Assembly: GCA_031261175.1 (NCBI GenBank)
Contig: JAISJW010000021.1
Span: 90,109 to 154,108, forward strand
Length of the DNA: 64,000 bases
Source of the DNA: Lactobacillales bacterium
GTDB taxonomy: Bacteria > Bacillota > Bacilli > Lactobacillales > Streptococcaceae
Direction: 5' to 3'
Part shown: piece by piece, positions 6,605 to 14,224 of the stretch
Position numbering within the stretch: the stretch's first letter is position 1
How the letters are laid out: every line of letters starts with the position of its first letter
Made by a program: the position numbers and the translations under genes
The notes under the pieces: generated by a model
What the model was told of the DNA's origin: nothing
What the model saw: the letters and a program-made list of their open reading frames with translations, nothing else
The model's database searches: none

Positions 6605-8572
6605 TTATTTAGATGCAGCGTTACGTTTAGCAGTCCATTCTTTTTGGGCTTTATCGTAGTCTTTACCTAAAACTGGAGTTTTTTGAAGTTTCATGTATTT
6701 GTAACGATCTCCAGAAGTTCCGCTTGACGCGTATGCTCCAGTAAATGGAACGCGGTAAGTAAGCGCTGGAACTGAACCGGCATTGTTAGTCGGGATGATG
6801 ATACCGTCACCGATTAAGAATGCTTCAGCTTTAGCGTAAGCAGCGTAACGTTCGTTAGTTTTATCTGTAGCAGTGATAGCAGCTGCTGCATCTAGAAGGT
6901 CTTTGTAATCGTAAAGACCAGCAGCTTTTTTAGCTGCGTATTCTGGATCAGTAGCATCATCTTTACCAGGGTTTTTATCAAGACCAAAGTTTTTAAGGAT
7001 ATCACCATTTTCAGGATTAGCAATATTCAAGTAAGTTGATGGATCTTGGAAGTCAGCTCCCCAAGCTCCTGGGAATGATAAGTCGAAGTCAGAAGCAGCG
7101 CCGGTTTCAGCGAAGTAAGTTGCTCCCATTGCTTTGTCGTCATTAACGATGTTAATGTCGAAGACAACGTTGTCTTTGCCTAAAGCAGATTCAACTGATT
7201 GTTTGTAAGATTTGAATTTGTTGATTTGGTTTGCATATTTTTCAGAAACAGGAATGTCAATGTGGATTGGCCATTTAACGCTGTCGCCTAATGTTTCTTT
7301 AGCTTTTGCTAATTCAGATTTCGCTACATCAACATTGTAGAAGTCATCAACGCCATCAGCGAATTTAACGCCTGTCCAAGATTCGCCACCTTGTTCAACG
7401 ATGTTCTTTTGAACTGCATCAGAGTAAGTTCCACCATCTACTGTTACGAAATCAGAAGGTGTAAGTTGGTTACGGATGCGGTCTCCACCGTATTCTTTAC
7501 CGTAAGCTGATTGTAAGTACGCAGTACGGTTGATTGAACGAACGATTGCAAGACGGAAGTCTTTGTTGGCAATTGCCGCTTTTGTAGAAGCGTTGTCGTG
7601 TTTATCAGTTGTGATTTCGTATGCTTGACGGTTTAAGTTAAACGAACCGAACAAAGTGAATAAGTTTGGTTGTGAAACATAAATGTTATCGCCATTGTTT
7701 TTCTTAACATCTTTGAAGTAAGCTTCTTGAGGTTGTAGAGCAACTGAAGATACAGCACCTTTTTTGAAGGCTTCGTAGTCACCAGCAGGATTGCTTTCTT
7801 GAGAGAAAGTGAATTTAACGCCTGTAAGGTGAACGTTTTTAGTATCCCAATATTGATCATTTGCTTTCAACTCAATTGCTGATTTAGAAGTGTAGTTAGC
7901 AAGAACAAATGGTCCGCTGTAAAGGATATCTTCAGCTTTAGTTTTACCGAATTCTTTACCTTTTTCAGTTGCGAATTTTTCGTTGATTGGGTAGAAAGGT
8001 CCAGTAGTTAATAATGAAACGAAGTATGGTGTAGGTTTGATTAAAGTGAATACCAAAGTGTTGTCATCTTTAGCAACGACACCAACTTTAGAGAAATCAG
8101 TTTCTTTACCATCTAAGTAATCTTGGTAGCCAGCGATAACATCTGCTGGGAATGACGAGAATGGAACTTGGTTGTCAGCCGCACGTTTAAGAGCGTAAAC
8201 GAAGTCTTGCGCTTTAACTTTAGCGTATTCTTCGCCTTCAGAAGTAACCCATTTAACGTCTTTTCTAAGATTGAAAGTCCAAGTTAAACCGTCTTCAGAA
8301 ATTCCACCATTATCAAGTGTTGGGATTTCTTTAGCCACTGCGGGAACGAATTCGCCGTATTCATTAGTTTCAACTAATTGTTCGATGAAGTTAGCTCCTA
8401 ATGCGAAGTCTTCTTCACCAGTCGCTTTACCGAAGTCAAACGTTGTTGGATCAGTTGTGTAAAACTCTTGTTGGACGCCAGTAGATTTAAGGCCTTGGCT
8501 TCCGCAACCTGTTAAAGTCGCACCTAGAATTAATGCAGTTCCTAGACCTGCAAATAATTTACTGTTTTTCAT
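6605..8572 (-). CDS. oppA: Oligopeptide ABC transporter substrate-binding lipoprotein (OppA type), copy 1
   Basis: Family 5 solute-binding protein (SBP_bac_5), 655 residues, a peptide-binding lipoprotein at the cell surface. The signal peptide ends in the lipobox LTGC (Cys about residue 22). Family features include GISEDGLTWTFNLRKDVKW and the C-terminal region ending in SGDRYKYMKLQ. The ATG at 8572 has AGGAGA at a good distance; the longer frame adds only seven residues. No opp permease or ATPase genes are nearby, so it must use a system encoded elsewhere. It is closely similar along its length to the next gene, a clear tandem duplication, and its codon use looks like that of a highly expressed gene. 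Confidence 0.92.
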   Translation of the reverse strand: MKNSKLFAGLGTALILGATLTGCGSQGLKSTGVQQEFYTTDPTTFDFGKATGEEDFALGANFIEQLVETNEYGEFVPAVAKEIPTLDNGGISEDGLTWTFNLRKDVKWVTSEGEEYAKVKAQDFVYALKRAADNQVPFSSFPADVIAGYQDYLDGKETDFSKVGVVAKDDNTLVFTLIKPTPYFVSLLTTGPFYPINEKFATEKGKEFGKTKAEDILYSGPFVLANYTSKSAIELKANDQYWDTKNVHLTGVKFTFSQESNPAGDYEAFKKGAVSSVALQPQEAYFKDVKKNNGDNIYVSQPNLFTLFGSFNLNRQAYEITTDKHDNASTKAAIANKDFRLAIVRSINRTAYLQSAYGKEYGGDRIRNQLTPSDFVTVDGGTYSDAVQKNIVEQGGESWTGVKFADGVDDFYNVDVAKSELAKAKETLGDSVKWPIHIDIPVSEKYANQINKFKSYKQSVESALGKDNVVFDINIVNDDKAMGATYFAETGAASDFDLSFPGAWGADFQDPSTYLNIANPENGDILKNFGLDKNPGKDDATDPEYAAKKAAGLYDYKDLLDAAAAITATDKTNERYAAYAKAEAFLIGDGIIIPTNNAGSVPALTYRVPFTGAYASSGTSGDRYKYMKLQKTPVLGKDYDKAQKEWTAKRNAASK

Positions 8573-8608
8573 TTGTAATCTTCTCCTATTCATATTTGAA
8601 TTTAAGAT

Positions 8609-8815: not shown

Positions 8816-10762
8816 TTATTTCCCCCTTGCTTCTCGCTCTTTTTGAAACTTGACGAAATCGGCGTTTTTAATTGCCGCCTTCTGTAGTTCGATGAATTTA
8901 TAACGTTCGCCGCTCGTTCCGCTGTGCGCAAGTGGTTGAGTTCCCGGTTTGATGTGACTCAACATTATCTCTGAACCCATATTTTGATACGGTAAGATCA
9001 GAGCGTTCCCAACCAAGTAAGCTTCCGCTTTCGCGTAAGCGTCGTCGCGCGCATTGAGGTCGTTGACGTCAGTAATTGCCCCCGCTTTTTCCAGTAAATC
9101 TGTGTATTCGTAAAGCCCCACCGTCTTTTTAACTTCGAATTGCGGGTCGGATTTCGGCTCGCCCGCGAAAGGATCAAGCCCCAGCCCGGCAAGTAAGCTT
9201 CCTGATTTCGCGTTGTAAATATTCAGATAGGCACTGGGGTCTTGGAAGCTTGAGCCCCAACCGTAAGAAAAGTCCATATCAAAGTCAGACTGTGCTCCGG
9301 TCGTGGCAGCGTATGTCGCCGTCCCGACTTGATCCTCATTCCCAAGGTTAATGTCGAGAACAACGTTATCTTTTCCGAGCGCTGCTTCGATACTTGCCTT
9401 AAATGATTTAACCCGGTTAATTCTGTTTTCGGCTTTCGAACCAACGGCTAAGTCGAGATGAATCGGCCATTTAACGCTGTCGCCTAGTTCGGCTTTGGCT
9501 TTCGCTAAATAAGCTTTAGCGATTTTTACGTCGTGAAAATCATCCACTCCATCTGCAAAGCTCACGCCTTTCCAACCGCTGTCGCCTTCTTCTGGTGCGT
9601 GGGCCGCGACAGCTTCAGCGTAAGTGCCGCCGTTTACGCTCACAAAATCGCTCGGTGTCATTTCGTTACGAATTGATGCATCTGCGTATTTTTTAGTGTT
9701 AATCATCGTAAGATATGCAGTTCGATCCCAACCGCGAAGGATAGCCAGCCTGAAATTTTTATTCAACAGCGCCGCTTTTGTCGATGCGTTGTCATGCTCA
9801 GCCGTTGAGAATTCGTAAGCCGCCCGGTTGAGATTGAACTTGCCGAAAGCAGTGAACGCCGATGGATTGGCGATGAAGATGTTATCTTTATACTCTTTTT
9901 CAACGTTCTTGAAATAGTTTTCCGCCGGTTTGAGCACCGCGCAAGTCAGGTTTCCATTTTTGAAGTTTTCGTAAGCTTGATCGCTTTCGACACTTTCGCT
10001 ATAACTAAGTTTCACATGTTTAACGTGGACGTTTTTTAGGTCCCAATACTCGTCGTTCGCCTTGAGTTCGATGACCGATTTAGAAGAGAACGCGTCAAGG
10101 ATATAAGGGCCGCTATATAGGATGTCGTCCGCTGCAATCTTCCCGTAATCAGCACCTTTCTCTGTCGCAAATTTTTCGTTAACCGGGAAATATGGTCCAG
10201 TCGTCAAAAGCGAAATGAAATAAGGAGTCGGCGTAGCAAGGGTGAATTGTAGCGTGTGATCATCTACCGCCTTAACTCCGACCGTCGAAAAGTCAGTTGT
10301 CGTGCCGTCTAAATAGTCCTTATAGCCTGCGATTACATCAGCCGAAAAGTGCGCGAATTCGGCTTTCACGTCCGCCGCATGTTTCAGCGCGAATACGTAA
10401 TCGCCTGCTGTTTCCTCGCCATATACCTCGCCTTCTGAAGTCACCCATTTAACACCTTTGCGGATTTTGAATGTCCAAGTCAGTCCGTCCTCGGAAATTC
10501 CGCCGTTTTCGGTCGTCGGAATTTCGCTCGCAGCCGCCGGTAAGTAATCACCATATGCGTTTGTTTCAACTAGCGGTTCGATAAAGTTCGCACCTAATTT
10601 CAAATCTTCCTCAAAAGTTGCTTTACCGAAATCCAATGTATTCGGATCCAGATTGAAATAATCTTGGAACGTTTCGGTCGAATTCGCTCCTTTTTTCCCA
10701 CATCCCGCAAGCGTTGCACAAATTAGTAACCCTATCGCAAAAATTTTACCAATTTTCATCAT
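8816..10762 (-). CDS. oppA: Oligopeptide ABC transporter substrate-binding lipoprotein (OppA type), copy 2
   Basis: Second SBP_bac_5 peptide-binding lipoprotein, 648 residues, with lipobox LAGC (Cys about residue 20). It aligns with copy 1 over the whole length (shared FDFGKAT, GISEDGLTWTF, SGTSGERYKF), with enough divergence to suggest different peptide preferences. Two adjacent ATGs are possible starts; AAGGAGC lies upstream. An extended -10 (TGGTATAAT) at about 10793-10801 gives it its own promoter. No terminator is obvious between it and copy 1; the 240-bp gap holds the copy-1 promoter region and nothing else recognised. Confidence 0.92.
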   Translation of the reverse strand: MMKIGKIFAIGLLICATLAGCGKKGANSTETFQDYFNLDPNTLDFGKATFEEDLKLGANFIEPLVETNAYGDYLPAAASEIPTTENGGISEDGLTWTFKIRKGVKWVTSEGEVYGEETAGDYVFALKHAADVKAEFAHFSADVIAGYKDYLDGTTTDFSTVGVKAVDDHTLQFTLATPTPYFISLLTTGPYFPVNEKFATEKGADYGKIAADDILYSGPYILDAFSSKSVIELKANDEYWDLKNVHVKHVKLSYSESVESDQAYENFKNGNLTCAVLKPAENYFKNVEKEYKDNIFIANPSAFTAFGKFNLNRAAYEFSTAEHDNASTKAALLNKNFRLAILRGWDRTAYLTMINTKKYADASIRNEMTPSDFVSVNGGTYAEAVAAHAPEEGDSGWKGVSFADGVDDFHDVKIAKAYLAKAKAELGDSVKWPIHLDLAVGSKAENRINRVKSFKASIEAALGKDNVVLDINLGNEDQVGTATYAATTGAQSDFDMDFSYGWGSSFQDPSAYLNIYNAKSGSLLAGLGLDPFAGEPKSDPQFEVKKTVGLYEYTDLLEKAGAITDVNDLNARDDAYAKAEAYLVGNALILPYQNMGSEIMLSHIKPGTQPLAHSGTSGERYKFIELQKAAIKNADFVKFQKEREARGK

Positions 10763-10993: not shown

Positions 10994-11608
10994 TTAAGCA
11001 ATTGTATTCGCATAGGCGATGTTTGCTAGGATTGATGCGTTCAAGACGTGTTCTTTATCAAGAACAGTCGCAGCATCCATGTGGTTTTCAAGAGCGCGTT
11101 TAGCGTCGTAAGCCACACCCTCAACGAAGTCGTTAAGGTTTTCGCTTTTAAGAACCGCCTCTGCTTTAGCCAAAGAAACTTTGGCGTTTTCAGCAGTTAC
11201 CGCAGCTGGGAAGTCTTGCGAGAAAGCAACGTCAGCTAGGACAACATCGGCGTAAACTTCTGAACCTTGCGGTGCAGTTGGAATCGCGATGAAGACTACT
11301 GCGCGTTCAGCGCCTTCTTTGTAAGCTTTCGCAGCGGCTTGGGCATCTTCGTCACCGATGGCGATAACCATATCGAAATACGATTTGATTTTACCAGCGT
11401 TAGCTTCGGTAGTTGTCACAGCTGTCACGTCGATGTTTTCGCCATCAACGCGGGCTGCGAAGCGACTTGCCACCGCAAGTTCTGCGCTTGTAAGAGTCAA
11501 ATCGTCAGAGATGACTAAGACGTTGCGCGGGTTCTCGAACATTGTAAGGTACAATGACGAGTTTTTTTCAAAGAATAGTTTTGGGAATTTAAATACAGGA
11601 ACTGTCAT
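10994..11608 (-). CDS. Short AdhE-derived protein: decayed Fe-alcohol dehydrogenase domain without metal ligands
   Basis: 204 residues with intact frame and a good Shine-Dalgarno (GGAGGGC). It aligns by eye to residues about 462-724 of the AdhE encoded 12 nt upstream: PKLFFEKNSSLYLTMFEN matches the linker/start of the ADH domain, DMVIAIGDEDAQAAAK matches DTIIALGGGSSMDAAK, IPTAPQGSEV matches IPTTSGTGSEV, and its end HVLNASILANIAYAN matches KMHNASAIAGMAFAN. The cofactor glycine cluster is altered (IGDED for GGGSS). The Asp/His iron-ligand segment (AdhE D660, H664) is replaced by ENAKVSLAKAE. The protein stops just before the last iron histidines. It is therefore unlikely to be an enzyme. A role in AdhE filament assembly or regulation is inference only. 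Confidence 0.8.
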   Translation of the reverse strand: MTVPVFKFPKLFFEKNSSLYLTMFENPRNVLVISDDLTLTSAELAVASRFAARVDGENIDVTAVTTTEANAGKIKSYFDMVIAIGDEDAQAAAKAYKEGAERAVVFIAIPTAPQGSEVYADVVLADVAFSQDFPAAVTAENAKVSLAKAEAVLKSENLNDFVEGVAYDAKRALENHMDAATVLDKEHVLNASILANIAYANTIA

Positions 11609-11620
11609 TTAATTGCCCTC

Positions 11621-14224
11621 CTATTTGGCAGTGTAAGAATCCAAGATGATTTGTTTCAACTCAGAGATCAATGGTTGTTTAGGGTTAGCAGTTGTACATT
11701 GATCTTCGTAAGCAAGTTCAGCCAAACGGTCAACAGTTGTGTCAAGGACTTCTTGAGTGATTCCTTGTTCAGAGATTGACATCTTGATTCCGCAAGTTGC
11801 GCCTAAATCGTAGATAGCAGTCGCTAGCGCTTCAACCAATTCTTCAGTTGTTTCACCAGCTAGGCCAACGTAACGAGCTACTTCAGCGTAATCTTCGTGA
11901 GCGCGGAAGAAGTCATATTTAGGGAACATAGCGTGTTTTTGAGGATCCTTAGCGTTGTAGCGAACTACTTGCGGTAATAGGATCGCATTGGCACGTCCGT
12001 GAGGAATGTTGTATTCTCCACCGATTTTGTGTGCGATTGAGTGAGTAACACCCAAGAACGCATTGGCGAACGCCATACCGGCAATTGCCGACGCATTGTG
12101 CATTTTTTCACGGTTGATCGGGTTAGGATTTTTAACTGAATCTTCAAGGTAATCGAAGACAAGTTTGATCGCTTGCAAGCTAAGACCACGAGTGTAGTCA
12201 GATGCCATTACAGACACATAAGCTTCAAGAGCGTGAGTTAATACGTCCATACCAGTATCAGCAGTAACCGAAGCTGGAACTGTAAGTACGAATTGAGGGT
12301 CGATGATTGCTACATCTGGAGTCAACGCGTAGTCAGCTAGTGGGTATTTAACGTGAGTTTCGCTGTCAGTGATAACGGCGAATGGAGTAACTTCCGAACC
12401 AGTACCTGAAGTAGTTGGGATACAAACTAATTTAGAGAACGCTGGGCGGTCAATTTTGTAAGTACGTTTTAGGATATCTAAGAATTTTTGTTTAGCGCCG
12501 AAGAAACGAGTTTCTGGACGTTCGTAGAATAACCACATACCTTTGGCAGCATCCATTGATGAACCACCACCTAAAGCGATGATTGTATCTGGTTTGAATT
12601 CTTTAGCCAACTCTGTACCAGCGTAAACTGTGTTAGTTGAAGGGTTAGGTTCAACGTCAGAGAAGATTTTGATTTCAACGTTGTTAGAACGTTTGCGCAA
12701 TTCTTGCTCAACGATCTTAACGAAACCGAATTGAACCATTCCTGGGTCACAAACGATCATAGCGCGTTCAACGTTTTCCATCATTGTTAAGTATTGTAGA
12801 GAGTTTTTCTCGAAGAATACTTTCGGTGGCAATTGCATCCATTGCATGTTGTTACGACGTTTAGCGATTGTCTTAACGTTGATCAAGTTTACAGCAGATA
12901 CGTTTTTCGATACAGAGTTACGTCCGTATGAACCACAACCTAGTGTAAGTGAAGGGATCATTTCGTTGTAGATGTTACCGATACCACCGACAGCTGTTGG
13001 TGAATTTACAAGCACGCGACAAGCTTTCATTTCGATACCGAATTGAACTTGCAAGTCTTCGTCTTCAGTGTGGATACAAGCCGTGTGTCCAGCTCCACCG
13101 ATGTGTAGCATAGTCGCACAGTGCGCGAATCCGTCTTTTTCGTCTTCAGCTTTAACCATTGCTAGAACTGGAGAAAGTTTTTCGTATGAAAGTGGGTGAT
13201 CAACACCAGTACCACCGATTGGGGCAAGTAGAATACGAGTTGTCGGAGCAACTTCGATTCCAGCACCAGCAGCGATTTCAGTAGCGTGTTTACCTACGAT
13301 TGGCGCATTTACACCGTGACCGACAACGTTTCCGTCAGCGTCAAGGTTTTCGTGCATTGCGTATGCAGTTAATTTAGCGATTTCTTCTTCGTTACACACG
13401 TGAACTTGGTGAGCGTCGAATTCAGCTAAAACTTCATCGTAGATGTCTTTGTGAACGATAACTGCTTGTTCAGAGGCACAGATCATACCGTTATCGAATG
13501 ATTTAGAAACGATAACGTCGTTAACTGCGCGTTTAACGTGAGCGTCGCTGTGGAAGTAAACTGGTACGTTACCAGGACCTACACCTAAGGCTGGTTTACC
13601 TTGAGAGTAAGCATTTTTAACCATCGCTGGGCCACCAGTTGCCAGGATTGTCATGACGATGTCATTTCCTAGTAAAAGGTTAGTCGCTTCGATTGATGGT
13701 TGTTCGATCCATTGGATACAGTTTTCAGGAGCACCGGCTGCAATTGCCGCGTCACGAACGATTTTAGCCGCCGCGATTGAACATTGCAAAGCTGATGGGT
13801 GGAAGCTGAAGATGATTGGGTTACGAGTTTTCAATGCGATCATCGATTTGAAGATTGCAGTTGAAGTCGGGTTAGTTGTCGGAACTAGACCGGCAATTGT
13901 CCCTACTGGTTCAGCAACCTCGATAAGACCAGTTTGTTTATCTTCGCTGATAACACCTACTGTTTTGTTGTCTTTGATTGAGTGCCAGATGTACTCAGAT
14001 GCGTACATGTTTTTGATTGCTTTGTCTTCGTAAACTCCGCGACCAGTTTCATCTACTGCGTGTTTAGCCAACACCATGTGTTTGTCTAATGCAGCCATTG
14101 CCATATCGTGAACGATGTGGTCAACTTCCTCTTGCGTGAAGTTAGCCATAGCGTCTAGCGCTACTTTAGCATTGTCACACAATGTGTTAATAGTGATTTG
14201 AACATCAGTTAATTGTTCAGCCAT
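11621..14224 (-). CDS. adhE: Bifunctional acetaldehyde-CoA/alcohol dehydrogenase AdhE
   Basis: Converts acetyl-CoA to acetaldehyde and then ethanol, reoxidising two NADH. Residues 1-445 are the aldehyde dehydrogenase domain, with catalytic Cys in GMICASEQ (about 249). Residues 465-867 are the Fe-dependent alcohol dehydrogenase, with GGGSSMDAAK, PTTSGTGSEVTPF and iron ligands in TGMDVLTHALEAY and GVTHSIAHKIGG...IPHG. The 867 residues fit the family. Two Rex-type operators flank the promoter, consistent with induction by high NADH/NAD. It is followed after 12 nt by a short AdhE-like gene in the same operon. Confidence 0.97.
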   Translation of the reverse strand: MAEQLTDVQITINTLCDNAKVALDAMANFTQEEVDHIVHDMAMAALDKHMVLAKHAVDETGRGVYEDKAIKNMYASEYIWHSIKDNKTVGVISEDKQTGLIEVAEPVGTIAGLVPTTNPTSTAIFKSMIALKTRNPIIFSFHPSALQCSIAAAKIVRDAAIAAGAPENCIQWIEQPSIEATNLLLGNDIVMTILATGGPAMVKNAYSQGKPALGVGPGNVPVYFHSDAHVKRAVNDVIVSKSFDNGMICASEQAVIVHKDIYDEVLAEFDAHQVHVCNEEEIAKLTAYAMHENLDADGNVVGHGVNAPIVGKHATEIAAGAGIEVAPTTRILLAPIGGTGVDHPLSYEKLSPVLAMVKAEDEKDGFAHCATMLHIGGAGHTACIHTEDEDLQVQFGIEMKACRVLVNSPTAVGGIGNIYNEMIPSLTLGCGSYGRNSVSKNVSAVNLINVKTIAKRRNNMQWMQLPPKVFFEKNSLQYLTMMENVERAMIVCDPGMVQFGFVKIVEQELRKRSNNVEIKIFSDVEPNPSTNTVYAGTELAKEFKPDTIIALGGGSSMDAAKGMWLFYERPETRFFGAKQKFLDILKRTYKIDRPAFSKLVCIPTTSGTGSEVTPFAVITDSETHVKYPLADYALTPDVAIIDPQFVLTVPASVTADTGMDVLTHALEAYVSVMASDYTRGLSLQAIKLVFDYLEDSVKNPNPINREKMHNASAIAGMAFANAFLGVTHSIAHKIGGEYNIPHGRANAILLPQVVRYNAKDPQKHAMFPKYDFFRAHEDYAEVARYVGLAGETTEELVEALATAIYDLGATCGIKMSISEQGITQEVLDTTVDRLAELAYEDQCTTANPKQPLISELKQIILDSYTAK

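Follow-up and report, generated by a model that had tools for sequence, protein, structure and literature searches.

A degenerate relative of the alcohol dehydrogenase (ADH) domain of AdhE, here named P0001, is encoded immediately 3' of adhE in a genome of the Streptococcaceae, and its sequence suggests a pseudoenzyme, in which the catalytic residues have been lost and the gene appears, from its open frame and codon usage, to have been kept in use. The surface through which AdhE dimers join into filaments (spirosomes) is retained at every contact position compared, and most of the loops that seal the contact between the ADH and aldehyde dehydrogenase (ALDH) domains are gone. The reading favoured here, to which we would assign a probability of about 0.4, is that P0001 is a functional, well-translated pseudoenzyme that would bind exposed ADH ends and cap or shorten AdhE spirosomes. 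If this were true, a natural dead ADH domain beside AdhE would be a protein control element of filament length, offering a direct way to test the reason for AdhE filament formation and a natural means of making the filaments shorter. Such filaments are widespread, and in E. coli filament length is associated with the direction of best enzyme performance (PMC12173503). The whole stretch of DNA analysed, 64,000 nucleotides of contig JAISJW010000021.1, is referred to as the window.

Layout of the adhE locus

The sequence-only reading of this DNA had described a 204-residue frame 12 nt after adhE, equipped with a good ribosome site. Its coordinates were confirmed from the sequence, as were the spacer between the adhE stop codon and the ATG of P0001 (exactly 12 nt) and the AGGAGG motif, which overlaps the adhE stop codon (11621-11623). 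This is the layout of a two-gene operon, in which adhE and P0001 would presumably be co-transcribed and translational coupling may occur. The ADH domain of the window AdhE is intact in the alignment, in its metal residues (D, H, H, H) as well as its cofactor glycines. P0001 is followed directly by a hairpin resembling an intrinsic terminator (Table 1), which is absent from the output of the consensus terminator scan, and the spacer region between adhE and P0001 folds no better than its shuffles (z 0.07). Further 3' in the window lie two adjoining genes for oligopeptide-binding proteins, the more distant of which has a codon adaptation among the two highest of the 38 window open reading frames (ORFs) compared.

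Table 1. Features of the adhE locus, in window coordinates; residue numbers of E. coli AdhE as in the text.
Feature	Coordinates	Strand	Basis
adhE, 867 aa, normal bifunctional aldehyde-alcohol dehydrogenase	11621..14224	-	NCBIfam PRK13805, 1352 bits; D, H, H, H
Shine-Dalgarno motif AGGAGG, 8 nt 5' of the P0001 ATG	11617..11622	-	sequence
P0001, degenerate ADH-like ORF, 204 aa, ATG start	10994..11608	-	ORF list, BLASTP, Smith-Waterman
P0001 residues 9-23, PKLFFEKNSSLYLTM; L11 and F13 align with E. coli I460 and F462 (hydrophobic pocket, ADH-ADH contact)	11540..11584	-	alignment
P0001 F161, aligned with E. coli F670	11126..11128	-	alignment
P0001 residues 190-197, with N190 opposite E. coli S705 and I197 opposite I712 (ADH-ADH contact)	11018..11041	-	alignment
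Terminator-like hairpin, 12 pairs and U-run, directly 3' of P0001	10957..10984	-	folding z -2.52
Oligopeptide-binding protein gene (SBP_bac_5)	8816..10762	-	
Oligopeptide-binding protein gene (SBP_bac_5)	6605..8593	-	

Kinship to AdhE and loss of the catalytic site

The in-order alignment with AdhE residues of approximately 462-724 that had been proposed was recovered by BLASTP against the window AdhE as one ordered alignment over residues 467-721 (25% identity, E = 7e-12). The Smith-Waterman score of the pair is 140, and 500 shuffles gave a mean of 39.8 (sd 5.6) and a maximum of 69, by which chance similarity is ruled out. The segment opening the ADH domain, said to have been retained, is indeed recognisable as FFEKNSSLYLTM in P0001, agreeing with FFEKNSLQYLTM of AdhE at 10 of 12 positions. 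On the evidence of BLASTP and the shuffles, P0001 shares common ancestry with the iron alcohol dehydrogenase (Fe-ADH) family. A closest kinship to single-domain Fe-ADHs was considered and rejected, given a best AdhE score of 56.2 bits vs 31.6 for the best single-domain enzyme, and contact residues that also differ. P0001 represents the ADH part only, the N-terminal ALDH domain being missing from its 204 residues.

With profile methods, phmmer matched P0001 to the solved AdhE ADH domain 3zdr with a full-sequence E-value of 3.6e-5, the sum over several pieces of which the best is weak (i-Evalue 0.045), and the NCBIfam AdhE model PRK13805 gave 0.0019 and 16.1 bits, below its cut-off of 951. A profile match to the ADH domain, suggested beforehand as a check, stayed below the cut-off with the Pfam Fe-ADH model (PF00465), which returned E = 0.027 and 14.5 bits, its gathering score being 31.3; annotation by this model would therefore miss the gene.

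Residues are numbered according to E. coli AdhE (record CP088590.1), whose D653, H657, H723, and H737 we take to be the iron ligands. At these positions the alignment gives V, K, gap, and gap for P0001, and the cofactor glycine cluster GGGS has become GDED. The protein terminates about 4 residues before the position of H723, leaving it short of some 150 C-terminal residues of the ADH domain. The sequence-only reading had claimed the loss of the glycine cluster and the Asp/His iron ligands, together with an end just before the last two iron histidines, and it was right on both counts.

A counterpart in a second genome

The genus of the P0001 host is represented by one genome. When 336 genomes of the family were searched with P0001 (E <= 1e-3), matches were obtained in 17 genomes (19 rows). 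Judged by the length of the open frame, 17 of the 19 rows are accounted for by AdhE-length frames, a contig-cut AdhE (586 aa), and a single frame as long as a single-domain ADH (394 aa). The remaining two were P0001 itself and P0003, such that this kind of gene occurs in 2 of the 336 family genomes. P0003 is a 269-aa degenerate ADH-like protein encoded 55 nt 3' of adhE on a 4147 bp contig of G038 (JAITHN010000038.1, the metagenome-assembled genome Streptococcaceae bacterium Pc512_bin8, 59% complete). It carries K, N, E, and a gap at the metal positions in the alignment, and passes the cut-offs of both Pfam Fe-ADH (41.6 bits vs 31.3) and ADH_Fe_C. The proposed check that relatives keep the gene beside adhE was thus answered in part, with one adhE-adjacent counterpart in a gene that is otherwise rare.

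P0001 and P0003 have their adjacency to adhE in common and their downstream genes are different. In G038, P0003 is followed by a further terminator-like hairpin and by cdaA, which apparently also follows adhE in G009 with no such gene in between (the G009 gene being judged by its start only), and the contig ends before the region upstream of adhE. A terminator-like hairpin was also seen by eye between adhE and P0003 (L066, ~1540-1575); it would lower the expression of P0003 relative to adhE. In G038, a frame at the end of contig C64 (L079) that contains one stop resembles P0003 weakly (24% identity, E 0.009).

None of the 17 other adhE loci inspected (18 fetched) contains such a gene, the 3' sequence being short in G039 (~520 bp) and G006 (472 bp) and the second adhE of G011 being cut off; in the second genome of the P0003 host's genus, no such gene lies within ~520 bp 3' of adhE. 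With P0003 as query, 333 of the 336 family genomes match, nearly all with AdhE among the matches listed, and complete match lists were then obtained for 15 genomes from seven genera. The genome-contig search gave no relative of P0001 and, for P0003, its own contig only, and the order-wide search with P0001 matched 2 of 395 genomes, once through P0001 itself and once through an AdhE-length frame. A class search of 200 genomes with a two-row profile gave, among the matches listed, no further frame that was both free of stops and shorter than single-domain ADHs, and one short frame with two stops (G816). The genome-contig, order, and class samples overlap. A plasmid search with P0003 returned 68 records, in none of which 80% or more of the query matched at a single place, and the best 10 of the 68 comprised six annotated as AdhE (or its Listeria name) and four without annotation there. 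The viral-contig search gave no relative, and a mobile origin would still be conceivable.

Filament contacts kept and ALDH contacts mostly lost

According to Kim et al. (PMC6778083), a pocket formed by I460, F462, and I712 of one ADH domain receives F670 of the neighbouring one, and F670 mutants gave no spirosomes by negative stain. The contact between AdhE dimers was described as involving two ADH domains only, with the F670 and S705 positions affecting spirosome formation or length (PMC12204686, eLife 2025). Loops 2 (561-589) and 3 (758-772) were reported by Pony et al. to be specific to AdhE and to seal the ALDH-ADH contact (PMC7080775). The ALDH-ADH contact loops are likewise treated as AdhE-specific in PMC12454647, in which the ADH-ADH contact is regarded as inherited from single-domain enzymes; single-domain Fe-ADHs also use this surface for their usual dimerisation (PMC7080775).

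At positions 460, 462, 670, 705, and 712, P0001 carries L, F, F, N, I and P0003 carries I, F, Y, N, I, where the AdhEs of the two genomes have V, F, Y, N, M. Relative to its own AdhE, each protein shows identity or a conservative exchange at all five positions. Other conserved columns are kept at 85 of 222 positions in P0001 and 115 of 222 in P0003, and without conservation matching the hypergeometric values for the five contact residues are 0.025 and 0.061, respectively. When five columns matched for conservation were drawn instead, all five were kept in 269 of 20000 draws for P0001 and in 1025 of 20000 for P0003, under a control that is coarse, its column pools being broad and four of the five residues lying in generally well kept stretches. 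The matched draws amount to modest evidence that these residues were preferentially retained. The N-terminal contact strand is the segment of highest identity in both proteins (14 of 22 positions in P0001 and 17 of 23 in P0003; hypergeometric 3.8e-4 and 2.2e-4).

The ALDH-contact loops fared differently, with 8 of 28 positions of loop 2 remaining in P0001 and 7 of 28 in P0003, and with none and one position of loop 3 remaining, respectively, the loss of loop 3 in P0001 being part of its C-terminal truncation. The inter-turn contacts R488, N492, and Q821 of Kim et al. (PMC6778083) are absent from P0001, as they also are from the AdhEs of G038, G039, and the window. Six single-domain ADHs of the family keep D, H, H, H and are variable at the five contact positions; the combination of F at 462, F/Y at 670, and N at 705, which is present in P0001, P0003, and most of the AdhEs compared, occurs in none of these six. 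Of the link to spirosomes that had been drawn from the sequence, the part that stands is the retention of the ADH-ADH contacts while the ALDH-contact loops are mostly deleted; the capping or dosing of AdhE is what we infer from it.

Signs of use

A clean frame had been put forward as an argument against a pseudogene, and this argument was strengthened by simulation. When the aligned adhE codons were substituted at random down to the 29% identity of P0001, none of 500 runs was free of stops, the mean being 6.4. The codon adaptation index of P0001, taken against 18 ribosomal-operon ORFs, is 0.575, and 38 other window ORFs have a median of 0.384, with 36 below P0001 and two exceeding it (the 38 window and 18 ribosomal-operon ORFs having been chosen by length, position, and sequence start, and not each by profile). 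The same protein recoded with average window codons reached 0.391 (sd 0.026, maximum 0.483 in 2000 draws), and neutral decay from adhE led to 0.342 (sd 0.034, maximum 0.444 in 300 runs). With a broader codon reference P0001 scores 0.660, again above 36 of the 38 window ORFs. Its coding score is 0.335 per codon, to be set beside 0.263 (sd 0.067) for the window ORFs and -0.325 to 0.035 for the other five frames.

Ribosomal genes were used as the codon reference because EF-Tu was not found in the host's own genome. Its domain 3 (PF03143) escaped detection in this 96% complete assembly (G000) and was found in 14 of 14 controls; an assembly gap is the probable cause.

The codon usage of P0001 is that of the highly expressed class, which may be taken as an indirect sign of strong translation under selection. 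A neutral pseudogene is contradicted by the stop-free frame and by a codon adaptation above that of the neutral-decay runs, and P0001 is probably not a decaying pseudogene.

Origin of the two genes

P0001 and P0003 are grouped in the maximum likelihood tree with a support of 97.5/98, and of 88 under a mixture model (197 columns), both on very long branches and both lacking most of loop 2. In the full tree the pair is placed beside all AdhEs, that of E. coli included, and not within the AdhEs of the family (weak support, 18.7/28), a placement that weakly counts against descent of the pair from the neighbouring adhE. The AU test rejected neither separate descent of each gene from the AdhE of its own host (p = 0.228) nor placement of the pair among the AdhEs of the family (p = 0.617). 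P0001 scores 42.0 bits against P0003, lower than against 12 of 17 AdhE ADH domains. With independent origins, the same losses and retentions would have occurred in two duplicates, strengthening the functional reading; with a shared origin, the gene would be old and mostly lost.

Tandem adhE-like genes were seen on contig C78 of G011 (L053; 3-1709 and 2007-4610, minus strand), the second being cut by the contig end. They are possibly an early stage of the duplication that yields degenerate partners.

A possible spirosome cap and its alternatives

In the mechanism proposed, P0001 would be made from the same operon as AdhE, by which its dose would be set, and its ADH-ADH surface would pair with the exposed ADH end of an AdhE dimer or filament. 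With this surface kept and loops 2 and 3 mostly lost, P0001 would occupy ADH ends without extending filaments: without the ALDH domain and loop 3, and with little of loop 2 left, a bound end could not be elongated further, and the protein would behave as a cap or chain terminator. The amount of P0001 relative to AdhE would then set spirosome length, and spirosome length in turn the balance between making and oxidising ethanol. In E. coli, a fraction dominated by short spirosomes oxidised ethanol far more effectively and performed the forward reaction equally well (PMC12173503), and the AdhE of Streptococcus pneumoniae is reported to form spirosomes (PMC4398557). The folding of P0001, its binding to AdhE, the capping, and the effect on flux are all predicted from sequence. 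Several considerations speak against capping: the ADH-ADH surface is shared with Fe-ADH dimers, and P0001 might only self-associate; about 150 C-terminal ADH residues are missing, and P0001 may not fold stably; and such a gene is present in just two family genomes, with the five contact residues being few. More tentative still is the general proposition that proteins of this kind are dedicated AdhE spirosome regulators, namely dead ADH domains born by duplication, perhaps more than once, which would cap filament ends and tune how fast, and in which direction, ethanol is metabolised.

An intact frame and adapted codons indicate that P0001 is used, though not for what, and it could instead be a functional degenerate ADH paralogue whose job has nothing to do with the ends of filaments, for example as a ligand sensor, a chaperone or activator of AdhE, or a moonlighting protein, its position merely reflecting birth by duplication. 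That P0003 still scores above the Pfam Fe-ADH and ADH_Fe_C cut-offs would suit such a role; AdhE is however indicated as the partner by the ADH-ADH contact residues that both proteins keep, by the ALDH-contact loops that both have mostly lost, and by an adjacency to adhE maintained despite different downstream genes, and we consider an unrelated job somewhat less probable than capping. Less probable again is a fast-evolving tandem duplicate of adhE that is decaying, still translated, and without a selected function. Patchy presence, very long branches, unequal lengths (204 vs 269 aa), and the existence of tandem adhE copies in the family (G011) are what such a duplicate would lead one to expect, but 204 codons without a stop, which no neutral simulation reproduced, codon usage above the level of neutral decay, and a good ribosome site all weigh against it. 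An element acting through the translation or mRNA of the adhE transcript, and not through a protein, was considered in view of the terminator-like hairpin between adhE and P0003; with similarity to AdhE at the protein level, coding-type codon statistics, and a distant tRNA as the sole Rfam match in the window at the gathering threshold, it is very improbable.

Comparison with known systems

Among the open-licence papers listed in a literature search, neither an AdhE-derived protein partner nor a protein controlling the length of AdhE filaments appeared; a small molecule perturbing AdhE filaments did. P0001 resembles AdhE (spirosin) itself in aligning in order with the ADH domain and in keeping the N-terminal strand and positions 460, 462, 670, 705, and 712 as identical or conservative residues, and differs from it in lacking the ALDH domain, the metal ligands, the glycine cluster, loop 3, and the greater part of loop 2. 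Like P0001, the single-domain iron alcohol dehydrogenases (PF00465) are stand-alone proteins, and such enzymes are also described as devoid of loops 2 and 3 (PMC7080775), yet the six compared keep D, H, H, H, of which P0001 keeps none.

Beyond the AdhE family, the PRPS pseudoenzymes are discussed together with filaments and paralogues of a metabolic enzyme (PMC13252144, as far as its excerpt goes), although they belong to an unrelated family. The idea of a catalysis-less paralogue that keeps a filament interface is already known from the septins, whose pseudoGTPases are described in PMC10731463 as paralogues without catalysis in which the filament assembly interface is preserved. The septins, however, constitute an unrelated eukaryotic family, and their pseudoGTPases are subunits inside the filament, whereas P0001 is proposed to act as a cap at its end.
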